Origin: Clostridium sp. 1001275B_160808_H3
GTDB taxonomy: Bacteria; Bacillota; Clostridia; Clostridiales; Clostridiaceae
DNA: 64,000 nt
Assembly: GCF_015550425.1 (NCBI RefSeq)
Contig: NZ_JADNAT010000011.1
Span: 1-64,000, forward strand
Reading direction: 5' to 3'
Shown here: one piece after another, positions 9,608 to 47,691 of the stretch
How the letters are laid out: the number at the start of each line of letters is the position of its first letter
Position numbering within the stretch: the first letter of the stretch is position 1
The notes under the pieces: model-generated
Seen by the model: only the letters and a program-made list of their open reading frames with translations
Database searches by the model: none
Told to the model about the DNA's origin: nothing
Program-made: the position numbers and the translations under genes

Positions 9608-12244
9608 ATGTTAAGATCAATGTATTCTGGTATAAGCGGTATGAAAGTTAATCAAACTAAGTTAGATGTTATAGGAAATAATATATCAAATGTTGGAACT
9701 ACATCATTTAAATCATCAAGAGCAAGATTTAGTGATATGCTAAGTCAAAATGTCTCAGATGCTATGGCACCATCTAACAATCAAGGTGGAGTAAATGCTA
9801 GCCAAGTTGGGCTTGGAGTTCAACTTGCAAGTATAGATTCTGTTATGACACAAGGTATGATGCAACCTACAGGAAGACAATTAGATGTTGCAATAGATGG
9901 TGATGGATTCTTTATGGTAAGTAAAGGACCATCAATTTATGATGGAACTTTAGAAGTAAATCATAGGGCTGGGGCGCATAATATAACTGCTCAGTCATTA
10001 AGCAATTCTGGAAGCGAAATAATGTATAGTAGAGATGGATCATTTATCCTAGATGAGCAAGGGAATTTATTAACTGGTGATGGATTTAGAGTTATGGGTT
10101 ATTCATTAACAAATGATGATAGCTCACAAGATGCAACAGGACAAGCTCCTAATGGAGTAAGCACAGCGGGATTAGACTTTAGATTTGGACCTGGATCACA
10201 ATTAAATGGATATAAAATAGTTCTAGGATCTGTTGGACCAGGAACAGTTACATCTGCAGATGTTAATAAGGCTGAAAAACTAATAGTAGTAAATGGAGAT
10301 TTTTCTAGAGCAGGAGCATTAACACCAGCTCAAGTAGAATCAGCAGTAAATAAAGGACTTTCTTCTGCTGGAATATCCCAACAAATGTTTGTTAGTGGAA
10401 AGCCTATTAGCTTTGAAGGTTTAGGATCATCAGCAGTCGTAGGTGGTACAGATGCATTAGCACCTAAAGCTATTACTATATCTGGGTTTACTATCCAACT
10501 TAACGAAGGTAGTGATTTAAATGGATATAGTTTTGAAATTGGAGAAATATCAAAAGATCCACTAGAAGTTAATATAGAAAAAGGAAGAAAGAAAATTGTT
10601 ATTAATGCAGATTTTTTAAATAAATCATTTAATTCTGCAGATTTGCAAGATGAGTTAAATAGTAAGTTTAAAGGTGCAGGAATCACACAAGAAGCAAAAG
10701 TTACAGGAACTCCTGCAACTTTGGGTAATATAAGTGGTGGGACAGATGATTCAGGTAAAGTAAATTCTCCAGCTGAAATAGTAGATGCAAAAGATGGAAG
10801 TGCAGCTAAAGCTGTTGGTGGATTTACTTTTACTGGAGTAACTGATGGTGAACTTAATGATTATACTATTTCTATAGGAGAAAGTTCAGTAGGTACCCCA
10901 CTTACAGTAGTAGTTGAAAATGGAAACATAATTATTAATGGTGATTTTAATACTACACCACCTAAATTTACTGATACAGAATTACAATCTAAGCTAAATA
11001 GTTCATTAAAAGCTAATGGAGTTAAGACTCAATTAACAGTTTCAGGAGTTGTTAATTCAGCAAATGTAACAAATAAAATTAAGTTCCAAGATGGTGTAAC
11101 AGCGTCATCTCCAAAAGCGTTAAATATTGCTGGGTTAAATGTAGAACTTCCAGCAGGAACACTATTAAATAATTTAGAGTTTCAAATTACAGATATTAAT
11201 GAACCAGGATTATCAGTAGAATATGTAGCAGCTTCAGGTGGAAATAATCATAAATTAGTTATTAAAGGTGATTTTACTAAAAAAGTTGCAGCAAGAGATT
11301 TAGAGGATAAGATAAATGCAGAGTTAAATGCAGAGTTAGGTACAAGTGAGAAAGTAAAGGTATCTGGAACATCAAAACCTTACACTGGATTAACTTCAGA
11401 TAATATTGAAGGTGGAGAGGTTGATAAGGCACCAGGCAAAATTACTGTTGGTGGTGTTGAATTAACATTTGATGCTGGAGCAGCGTTGAATGGATACAAA
11501 TTCCAAGTTGGACAAATAACACCTGGTACTAAGACATCAGCTACAATTGATGAAAAAGGAAAGACAATTACTATAAATGGTGATTTTGTAACTACAAATG
11601 CTATTACAGCTAAAAATATACAAGATGCTTTAACTAGAGCTTTAGAAGGAAAAGGAATAGCTCAAGGAATAACTTCAACAGGAAAACCAATGGAAATTGG
11701 AGGCGTTGTTTCAGAAGAAACAAATGGAGGAACTCCAATAGAAAGTATGAATACTGATGGAAGTATTAACTTTATAGATGCAACAAAAAATCTTAAATCA
11801 TATGATGGAGAATTAAAAACTCTTAAGATTCCAGACAAGGTAAAAGTACCAGGTACAGATACAGAACTTAGAGTTAAAACTTATACCATAGATAAAAATG
11901 GTGTAATTAATGGAGTACTTGAAGATGGTAGAGTAGCGGCACTTGGACAAATAGCCATGGCAAGTTTTAAGAACCCAGAAGGTTTAACTAAGCTTGGAGG
12001 AAATCTTTATAGTTCATCAGTTAACTCAGGAGATGCTGTTATAAAGAGTGGTGTTGGAACTTTAAATGATGATAACTCAAAAGGGTATGGAGATAATCTT
12101 CAAGGAATGCTTGAAATGTCAAATGTAGATTTATCAGAACAATTTACAGATATGATAGTTTCAAGTAGAGCTTTCCAAGCATCAGGAAAAATGATAACTA
12201 CTGGAGATGAAATTCTTCAAGATATAATTAACTTAAAGAGATAA
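9608..12244 (+). CDS. flgE: Flagellar hook protein FlgE, repeat-expanded
   Basis: Hook subunit forming the universal joint. The N-terminus (MLRSMYSGISGMKVNQ, then VIGNNISNVGTTSFKSSRA) and the C-terminus (SNVDLSEQFTDMIVSSRAF, then IINLKR) are the conserved rod/hook helices, so both ends are intact. At 878 residues it is about twice the common length of roughly 400. The extra length is a block at about residues 189-708 made of five diverged tandem repeats, annotated separately. It starts at ATG 9608 behind GGGTTGGAGG. Between the preceding gene and this start (9556-9590) there is a short TTCTTGC/GCAAGAA hairpin. Confidence 0.95.
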   Translation: MLRSMYSGISGMKVNQTKLDVIGNNISNVGTTSFKSSRARFSDMLSQNVSDAMAPSNNQGGVNASQVGLGVQLASIDSVMTQGMMQPTGRQLDVAIDGDGFFMVSKGPSIYDGTLEVNHRAGAHNITAQSLSNSGSEIMYSRDGSFILDEQGNLLTGDGFRVMGYSLTNDDSSQDATGQAPNGVSTAGLDFRFGPGSQLNGYKIVLGSVGPGTVTSADVNKAEKLIVVNGDFSRAGALTPAQVESAVNKGLSSAGISQQMFVSGKPISFEGLGSSAVVGGTDALAPKAITISGFTIQLNEGSDLNGYSFEIGEISKDPLEVNIEKGRKKIVINADFLNKSFNSADLQDELNSKFKGAGITQEAKVTGTPATLGNISGGTDDSGKVNSPAEIVDAKDGSAAKAVGGFTFTGVTDGELNDYTISIGESSVGTPLTVVVENGNIIINGDFNTTPPKFTDTELQSKLNSSLKANGVKTQLTVSGVVNSANVTNKIKFQDGVTASSPKALNIAGLNVELPAGTLLNNLEFQITDINEPGLSVEYVAASGGNNHKLVIKGDFTKKVAARDLEDKINAELNAELGTSEKVKVSGTSKPYTGLTSDNIEGGEVDKAPGKITVGGVELTFDAGAALNGYKFQVGQITPGTKTSATIDEKGKTITINGDFVTTNAITAKNIQDALTRALEGKGIAQGITSTGKPMEIGGVVSEETNGGTPIESMNTDGSINFIDATKNLKSYDGELKTLKIPDKVKVPGTDTELRVKTYTIDKNGVINGVLEDGRVAALGQIAMASFKNPEGLTKLGGNLYSSSVNSGDAVIKSGVGTLNDDNSKGYGDNLQGMLEMSNVDLSEQFTDMIVSSRAFQASGKMITTGDEILQDIINLKR
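10172..11731 (+). repeat. Five diverged protein repeats inside FlgE
   Basis: Five consecutive units of about 90-100 residues occupy FlgE residues 189-280, 288-379, 400-496, 503-603 and 611-708. Each unit shows the same series: a hydrophobic strand, then (D/A/S)xLNxYxFxxG or close variant, a strand I(I/V)(I/V)NGDF, a helix like LQDxLNxxLxxxGI, a V(S/T)GTP-like strand, and a terminal Gly-Gly. The units differ widely in sequence and have no obvious DNA-level identity, so the duplication is old. They probably form surface domains on the hook. Confidence 0.8.
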
Positions 12245-46065: not shown

Positions 46066-47691
46066 ATGGAGAATATAAGAAACATTACACCAAAAAAAGG
46101 ATCATTTTTTAAATATTTAGGATGGCTATTAACAGCTTATATTATAGTTGGAATATTTTTAGCTTTTAATAGTAGTTTAATACTAGATTTTACATTGAGT
46201 TCATTTTATATTGCAGGAGTATTTGTTGTAGTAACAGCAACTTATGCTTTTTTTACATTAAATAAGAAATATGGACTAGCTGCAGTAATAGTTGCTGCAA
46301 TTTATATTATATCATTAGTAGTATTTAGCCCTATAGTGAGCTATAAGGCCCATAGAGGATTACTTGGTGATGTGGAAGGTGTTGAATTTAGTAGTGAAAT
46401 TGAACACATAGATTTAAAACAGTTACCAACTATAGATAAAGAAGTTGCATATAAATTAGCTGATAAGAAATTAGGGGAAATACCTAGCTTAGGTAGCCAA
46501 GTAACTATTGGAGATTTAACATTGCAAAGTGTGAATGGACAACTTTATTATGTTGCCCCATTAGAACATTCCTCATTATTTAAATGGTTTACTAATAGAG
46601 AAGGAACTACAGGTTATATAAAGGTAAGTGCAACAAACGAAAGTGATGTACAATTAGTAACAGAGGTAAATGGAAAAGATATTAAAATTAAATATTTAGA
46701 ATCAGCTTATCTTTTTAGTGATTTACACAGAGCAGCTTATCTTAGAGATATGAAGGCTGGTCATACTGATTTTACTTTTGAATTAGATGATGAAGGAAAT
46801 CCATATTGGGTTGTTACTAGGTATGATAATGCTATTGGGATAGCAGAGGCAAAAGCGATAGGTGTTCTTGTATTAAATGCTGAGACGGGAGAATCTAATG
46901 TTTATGGAATAGAAGATGCACCAAAATGGATAGATAGAATTCAACCAGATAGATATATAAAAAATTATATAGATAAATGGGGAGAACTTGTTCATGGAGT
47001 ATTTAACTTTAGCGATAAAGATAAGTTAAAGTCTACAGATGGAATGAACTTAATATTTAATAATGATGAATGTTATTATTTTACGGGAGTAACATCGGTA
47101 GGAAATGATGAAGGATTAGTAGGCTTTACTTTAACTAATACAAGAACAGGTGAAACAAGCTTATATAAAACATCAGGAGCAACAGAAACTGCAAGTATGA
47201 AATCTGCACAAGGTAAAGTTCAACAATATGGATATACAGCCACCTTACCATATTTAATAAATATACAAAATGAACCAACTTATTTTATGACTTTAAAAGA
47301 TTCAAATGGATTAGTTAAACAGTATGCTATGGTGAATGTTAAAAATTATAATATAGTAGGCGTTGGAGATTCATTACAATCAACTCTTAATAAATATTTA
47401 GAGGGATTAACTAACACTAATATTTCGCTTGAGGGTAGTAATAGTGAGGAAAGCTTAGAAGGTGAAATCGAAAGAATTGGATTAGTTGTTAAGGATGGAA
47501 CTAGTATTTATGATATAAAAATTAAAGGAAGTGATAATATATTTTCAGTTTCAACAGAAACATCAAGAGAAGTAGCATTAAGCTCTGTTGGTGATAAGAT
47601 AGTAGTTAAATTTATAAAAGTTGGAGATGGAAAATTTATATTAACAAATTCATTTGAAAATATTACTTTAAAAAGCACACAAAATCAATAG
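46066..47691 (+). CDS. Large membrane-anchored protein of unknown function
   Basis: A 541-residue protein with three N-terminal membrane helices (about residues 18-38, 43-62 and 70-92) and a long soluble remainder, probably outside the cell, rich in beta strands (YYVAPLEHSSLFKWF, YWVVTRYDNAIGIAEAKAIG). The C-terminal part after residue 455 is a small separate domain. Related proteins are conserved in clostridia but I know no assigned role. It is monocistronic with a strong terminator. GGAGGATGG precedes ATG. Confidence 0.8.
   Translation: MENIRNITPKKGSFFKYLGWLLTAYIIVGIFLAFNSSLILDFTLSSFYIAGVFVVVTATYAFFTLNKKYGLAAVIVAAIYIISLVVFSPIVSYKAHRGLLGDVEGVEFSSEIEHIDLKQLPTIDKEVAYKLADKKLGEIPSLGSQVTIGDLTLQSVNGQLYYVAPLEHSSLFKWFTNREGTTGYIKVSATNESDVQLVTEVNGKDIKIKYLESAYLFSDLHRAAYLRDMKAGHTDFTFELDDEGNPYWVVTRYDNAIGIAEAKAIGVLVLNAETGESNVYGIEDAPKWIDRIQPDRYIKNYIDKWGELVHGVFNFSDKDKLKSTDGMNLIFNNDECYYFTGVTSVGNDEGLVGFTLTNTRTGETSLYKTSGATETASMKSAQGKVQQYGYTATLPYLINIQNEPTYFMTLKDSNGLVKQYAMVNVKNYNIVGVGDSLQSTLNKYLEGLTNTNISLEGSNSEESLEGEIERIGLVVKDGTSIYDIKIKGSDNIFSVSTETSREVALSSVGDKIVVKFIKVGDGKFILTNSFENITLKSTQNQ

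Follow-up and report, generated by a model that had tools for sequence, protein, structure and literature searches.

The flagellar hook has to bend flexibly while being strong enough for torque, and how it does so is an open mechanical question. The window analysed here, a 64,000-nucleotide stretch of the genome of Clostridium sp. 1001275B_160808_H3, encodes a hook protein (FlgE) with a long repeated region between its two core halves. In this study, we aimed to establish what this region consists of, how it has changed among relatives, and what it may do for the hook. Enlarged hook proteins as a kind are already known; new here are the apparent replacement of hook domain D2, a ladder of zero to six copies with memory of position, and a domain shared with flagellins.

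flgE follows fliK and flgD, both recognized by Pfam, within a flagellar cluster (Table 1). The core halves of FlgE matched Flg_bb_rod, LlgE_F_G_D1, and Flg_bbr_C (PF00460, PF22692, and PF06429, respectively), all above cut-off, which bears out the recognizable N- and C-terminal hook halves reported in the initial annotation. The NCBIfam FlgEFG_subfam model matched at 194.2 bits (cut-off, 70.25 bits); the NCBIfam FlgE equivalogs also matched, below their own cut-offs. Among species-named proteins, that of Clostridium mucosae was the closest (97% identity over residues 165-750). The nearest genome, G001, had 20% of sampled words in common with the window, and its FlgE was 88% identical. In the counts below, the family is that of G001, which was taken to be Clostridiaceae. 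Another protein of the window, 541 aa long and encoded at 46066-47691, has hydrophobic segments close to its N-terminus and matched no Pfam family at E up to 1e-4.

Table 1. Features of the flgE locus, in window positions.
Feature	Position	Strand	Remark
fliK, hook-length control, 502 aa	6895..8403	+	Pfam Flg_hook
flgD, hook cap, 230 aa	8416..9108	+	Pfam FlgD N-terminal region
Small flagellar operon protein, 128 aa	9145..9531	+	Pfam Flagellar_put
flgE, flagellar hook protein, 878 aa	9608..12244	+	Single open reading frame
N-terminal D0/D1 half of FlgE, aa 1-180	9608..10147	+	Pfam Flg_bb_rod and LlgE_F_G_D1
Unit U1, aa 181-281	10148..10450	+	Profile match 108.7 bits
Unit U2, aa 286-383	10463..10756	+	Profile match 101.8 bits
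Unit U3, aa 402-496	10811..11095	+	Profile match 78.9 bits; least conserved, inferred distal tip
Unit U4, aa 502-604	11111..11419	+	Profile match 87.3 bits
Unit U5, aa 609-709	11432..11734	+	Profile match 113.9 bits
C-terminal D1/D0 half of FlgE, aa 710-878	11735..12241	+	Pfam Flg_bbr_C

A unit profile was made from the five units of the window FlgE and iterated over 120 listed relatives. It placed the array at residues 181-709 (window 10148-11734; 10172-11731 in the initial annotation). With hand-set boundaries, the ten unit-pair scores had z values of 4.9 to 28 and were reached by none of 1000 shuffles; the weakest pair, U3-U4, scored 57, and its shuffles reached 52 at most. The protein was also scanned diagonally against itself in 40-residue ungapped windows with no preset boundaries. 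Peaks appeared at offsets 428, 323, 216, and 105 (scores of 109, 81, 74, and 56, respectively), and 100 shuffles of the array region gave a maximum of 53, which the offset-105 peak barely exceeds. The internal repeat is thus significant both in the boundary-free self-alignment and in the unit-pair shuffles. The five homologous units are real, and the profile and shuffle tests uphold the earlier claim of five diverged copies between the D0/D1 halves, at about 105 residues each. Tandem Repeats Finder (TRF) found no DNA array of unit period, DNA-level matches between repeats were limited to 24-30 nt, and mean identity between units inside one protein was 31-39% in 33 five-unit FlgE; the array is therefore old. 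No Pfam family reached its cut-off in any unit of the window FlgE.

In AlphaFold models, U1, U2, U4, and U5 were predicted to have five strands, then a helix, then one more strand, and U3 had four strands ahead of the helix. The similarity of the predicted folds agrees with the idea of copies of one domain, except that U3 is one strand short before the helix. A single unit modelled alone had a pLDDT of 86.9 and a pTM of 0.77, and no convincing solved structural relative was found for it. The full FlgE model had block pLDDT values of 77-94 over the array, below 50 over most of D0, and a pTM of 0.43; at this pTM, the placement of domains, the out-and-back course discussed below, and the contacts between subunits are tentative. 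In the predicted model, the array comes directly after the D1 strands. PF07559, the canonical hook D2, was absent among the Pfam matches of the window FlgE at E up to 1; hence, the array seems to stand in place of D2. The initial annotation had described the units as extra residues of the hook protein; instead of sitting on a canonical D2, the array appears to replace it. PF07559 had one match in 68 same-genus genomes, in a frame of 217 aa that is not FlgE and lies apart from flgE; of the 14 control genomes, three were positive, namely E. coli, Caulobacter, and Thermotoga. To our knowledge, there is no solved Clostridium hook structure, and none was among the PDB sequence matches of the window FlgE.

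The distribution of the unit was then evaluated. At E 1e-5, the profile matched in 51 of 206 family genomes, representing 13 of 46 genera. In 47 of the 51, the units are in FlgE, and matches per genome never exceed FlgE's own units; two unit-bearing genomes (G037 and G056) have FlgE at contig ends. In the other four, FlgE has no units, and the match lies in FliD (G033) or in flagellins (G080, G114, and G148), as identified by Pfam. The match in G080 is strong (74.8 bits); the other three range from 21 to 29 bits. At the class level, three of 393 genomes matched: two of the same genus (G001 and G007) and G550, in a flagellin by Pfam. At the phylum level, three of 398 matched, namely G001 and two weak cases, G676 and G868; the matching frames of these two are presumably flagellins, judging from a motif at their ends. 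Every match above the dropped noise, where the protein was inspected, was in a flagellar axial protein. A scan of named genomes, which gives no frequencies, had the unit-bearing loci L083, L084, and L085 among the 80 loci listed. Two weak partial matches in that scan (5.8 and 10.6 bits), stray profile matches in short frames (5.8 to 11.8 bits), and a second match of 5.0 bits in flagellins L244 and P0142 were dropped.

Unit number and length were tabulated for 110 FlgE, one per genome and with the window included, at a profile cut of 12 bits. FlgE had 262-558 aa with no unit (n=63), 457-470 aa with one (n=3, with the weak single unit of G183, a genome outside the 51, counted as one), 550-560 aa with two (n=6), 662 aa with three (n=1), 762-764 aa with four (n=3), 866-921 aa with five (n=33), and 974 aa with six (n=1). 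Among relatives, then, unit number varies from zero to six. The five-copy architecture proposed in the initial annotation is present, but other genomes share it: five is the most frequent copy number on the one-to-six ladder (33 of the 47 unit-bearing FlgE). A tree of the same proteins, with the split FlgE of G037 and G056 left out and a hand-picked sample of unit-free FlgE outside the genus, needs, irrespective of direction, at least three changes between units and none and at least 13 for all states. Nested among the unit-bearing FlgE is a same-genus clade of 22 FlgE with no units, in genomes where FlgE, FlgD, and FliK are all present. Six-unit counts of P0088 and P0101 were rejected since single units had been matched twice; the sole true six-unit FlgE seen was P0119, identical to that of G186. 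Four-unit counts of P0038, P0049, P0053, and P0061 were not used, these being shortened database entries.

The units keep their identity by position. Position-class profiles were made from 101 five-unit proteins, one per position. They were tried on 13 five-unit FlgE sharing no more than 71% identity with any of the 120 relatives. The top score came from the unit's own class for 62 of 65 units, and for 29 of 30 in six same-genus proteins (L045-L050, 45-57% identical); several class margins were slim, 0-5 bits. In a tree of 112 units over 100 columns, in which six of 109 inner branches were starred, the changes needed were two for first units, two for flagellin units, five for last units, and nine for inner units. 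Because the position classes are kept and the unit tree groups in this way, the copies probably arose before these genera diverged. Shorter arrays tend to keep the ends. Five of six two-unit FlgE are U1+U5 (L189, L190, L191, L200, and L054; the exception is L194), and six of nine classified four-unit proteins are U1-U2-U4-U5, without U3 (P0064, P0066, P0067, P0070, and P0071, relatives of the window protein, and L182). No clean class order was obtained for L194 (two units), P0098, L193, and L195 (four units), or L201 (six units), and the middle unit of the three-unit L051 was placed differently by profile and by tree.

Conservation follows the same pattern. In the 33 five-unit FlgE, mean pairwise identity was 72.0% in the N-core and 70.9% in the C-core, and 56.4, 38.1, 30.8, 37.0, and 45.6% in U1 to U5, respectively. 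Conservation along FlgE is therefore V-shaped, with its minimum at U3. The chain exits and re-enters D1 and so must go out and back; from this and the conservation gradient, we infer that U3 is outermost and that U1 and U5 are next to the shell. The V shape could also come from exposure alone. The retention of U1+U5, the loss of U3, and the V-shaped conservation together suggest an out-and-back stalk altered at its tip. Against five close relatives, dN/dS was 0.07-0.34 for the units of the window FlgE and 0.04-0.34 for any segment; selection on the units is purifying in these close pairs. Against a sixth, more distant relative (L042), it was 0.10-0.49, except for U3, whose value of 1.33 at 20% identity was taken as misalignment or saturation and is unreliable.

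These observations lead to the following model. The outer part of FlgE consists of five homologous domains, each about 105 residues long, and appears to occupy the site that D2 has in other hooks. From D1 the chain runs through U1 to U5 and back into D1, most likely as an out-and-back array in which U1 and U5 are near the shell and U3 forms the tip. Arrays of adjacent subunits would touch, thicken the hook, and raise its stiffness or strength, by analogy with D3/D4 of Campylobacter. Taken as a whole, the explanation we consider fairly probable is that the window FlgE is an ordinary hook subunit as to its D0/D1 core, that an out-and-back array replacing D2 stiffens or strengthens the hook, and that repeated changes in copy number, often in mid-array, have occurred in the family.

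Among the closest known systems is FlgE of C. jejuni (851 aa; 5jxl and 5az4), which is likewise enlarged, with a conserved D0/D1 core and a large outer insertion. It was the best Foldseek match of the full model (E 5.3e-07), with TM-scores of only 0.14-0.15. C. jejuni FlgE is reported to keep D2 and add D3 and D4 (PMC5097172, PMC5069557), whereas in the window FlgE D2 (PF07559) was undetected and copies of one domain are found there. C. jejuni cells with D3/D4 deleted were reported to be very poorly motile; >90% of them bore short flagellar stubs, and broken flagella were numerous. The authors of that study proposed that D3/D4 make the hook stiffer and stronger (PMC5097172). By this analogy, mechanical strengthening is the likeliest role of the units, and stiffness would be the best supported of the effects that the initial annotation had proposed. 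That annotation had also asked how FliK and FlgD cope with a larger subunit. Since Salmonella FlgE with about 386 inserted C. jejuni residues is reported to make normal flagella still, with poorer swimming (PMC5069557), a larger subunit would be no bar in itself. FlgD frames in the five-unit set had 155-256 aa. Unit number had a Spearman correlation of 0.44 with FliK frame length and a weak negative one of -0.21 with FlgD in 102 of the 110 rows (those dropped had no FlgD, or FliK missing or of at most 330 aa); these values ignore shared ancestry and were not relied on.

Alternatively, the units may be weakly constrained decoration: a domain gained early, spread by internal duplication and drifting in copy number with little effect on the hook. 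Its points are the range of zero to six copies, the nested unit-free clade that still has FlgE, FlgD, and FliK, and other family FlgE (423-558 aa) with outer inserts of similar size that lack a unit match. Such drift is nonetheless at odds with purifying selection on every unit in the five close pairs, with position classes preserved across long divergence, and with the fairly good conservation of U1 and U5, and we regard it as unlikely. Among the unit-free FlgE, the outer inserts of L206, L207, L212, and L232 (458-558 aa) had no Pfam family above cut-off.

A surface display layer serving adhesion, glycan attachment, or immune variation is less probable still, and we give it little credence. 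In its favour, the units are located between the D1 halves, which in known hooks is the outward-facing side (PMC5097172), and the related flagellin domain sits between Flagellin_N and Flagellin_C. Even so, no unit had a Pfam adhesin or lectin match at E up to 10, the five close pairs gave no sign of positive selection, and TRF found no DNA array of unit period that would permit slippage. The adhesion and immune recognition suggested earlier thus found no support, with no adhesin or lectin family and unit dN/dS of 0.07-0.34.

Flagellins carry a related domain. A domain from flagellin P0121 (genome G080; P0123, named Clostridium lacusfryxellense, is its database copy) was searched against about 5.8 billion sequences and found 22 proteins, namely 14 flagellins and eight FlgE, with FlgE at E down to 8.4e-48. 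A second search found 12 flagellins, that of Desulfosporosinus burensis among them. Unit-bearing flagellins include those of Peribacillus asahii, Sediminibacillus, Lederbergia, and Sporosarcina. In these proteins, the domain sits between Flagellin_N and Flagellin_C. A profile made only from FlgE matched 23 of 23 flagellin rows at 40.8-92.4 bits, compared with at most 10.8 bits in 2400 shuffled sequences; the rows come mostly from similarity search and are not independent, P0121 equals P0123, and P0133 and P0140 look shortened. Hook and flagellin units aligned in hhalign with E 1.7e-33 over 101 columns (score 171.2 versus 15.7 for reversed units), at 40% identity and with internal gaps of at most four residues. 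At the level of sequence, these comparisons show that the hook unit and a domain from the variable region of flagellins (P0121, P0130, P0140, and kin) are homologous. Independent origin, with both units having converged on a simple arrangement of strands and helix joined by G-rich linkers, might be favoured by the shortness of the units, their richness in G, T, A, V, and S, and the recruitment of most flagellin rows by similarity; it is very improbable given the 40% identity over 101 columns with such small gaps, the P0121 search, and the ceiling of the shuffles.

In G033, the FliD filament cap (L242:1-1998, minus strand) has one weak unit match (29.4 bits), and the domain may be present in the filament cap too. 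No unit was seen in hook and flagellin together in the 51 unit-bearing family genomes, where divergent flagellin units could escape the profile. A broader reading, held tentatively and with slightly less than even confidence, is that an uncurated domain, found only in flagellar axial proteins among the genomes searched, serves hook, filament, and perhaps cap alike as an outer brick, stacked one to six times in the hook as an out-and-back stalk whose length changes at the tip, the series tuning stiffness. A common domain means that the outer parts of hook and filament can share an origin. A literature search by title and start of abstract, with most subscription papers outside its coverage, returned no paper on FlgE repeats in Clostridium or on a domain common to FlgE and flagellin.

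Flagellins P0129, P0130 (Peribacillus asahii), and P0135 carry three units each, tandem copies of the same domain family in flagellin and not in FlgE. The P0129 copies and two of the three P0130 copies cluster in the unit tree, which was made without P0135, as if recent, whereas the hook units form old position classes. Giant flagellins with duplicated DE regions (PMC6248924) are likewise comparable, with a tandem outer domain between conserved axial halves and the same question of an out-and-back chain. They are filament proteins with two copies, studied in marine gamma-proteobacteria, whereas the window has a hook protein with five; the likeness seen is one of architecture. The natural series of FlgE with 0, 1, 2, 3, 4, 5, and 6 copies on a conserved core would make hook thickness and stiffness measurable against copy number.

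Several minor features of the loci were observed. L055 (G002) and L064 (G068) have two unit-free tandem flgE frames (366 + 384 aa and 352 + 352 aa, respectively) between flgD and a motA-like gene; a fused double hook in G068 (731-aa frame) was rejected on finding the two 352-aa frames. In the 22-FlgE unit-free clade (L055-L068 and L070-L077), FlgD has 253-406 aa versus 155-256 aa in the five-unit set, a hint from related genomes that perhaps reflects one event. Neighbouring frames with FliK similarity are very long in three loci: 1283 aa (cut by the stretch end) in L201 (G186), where FlgE has six units; 1081 aa in L216 (G148), where it has none; and 854 aa in L193 (G149), where it has four.
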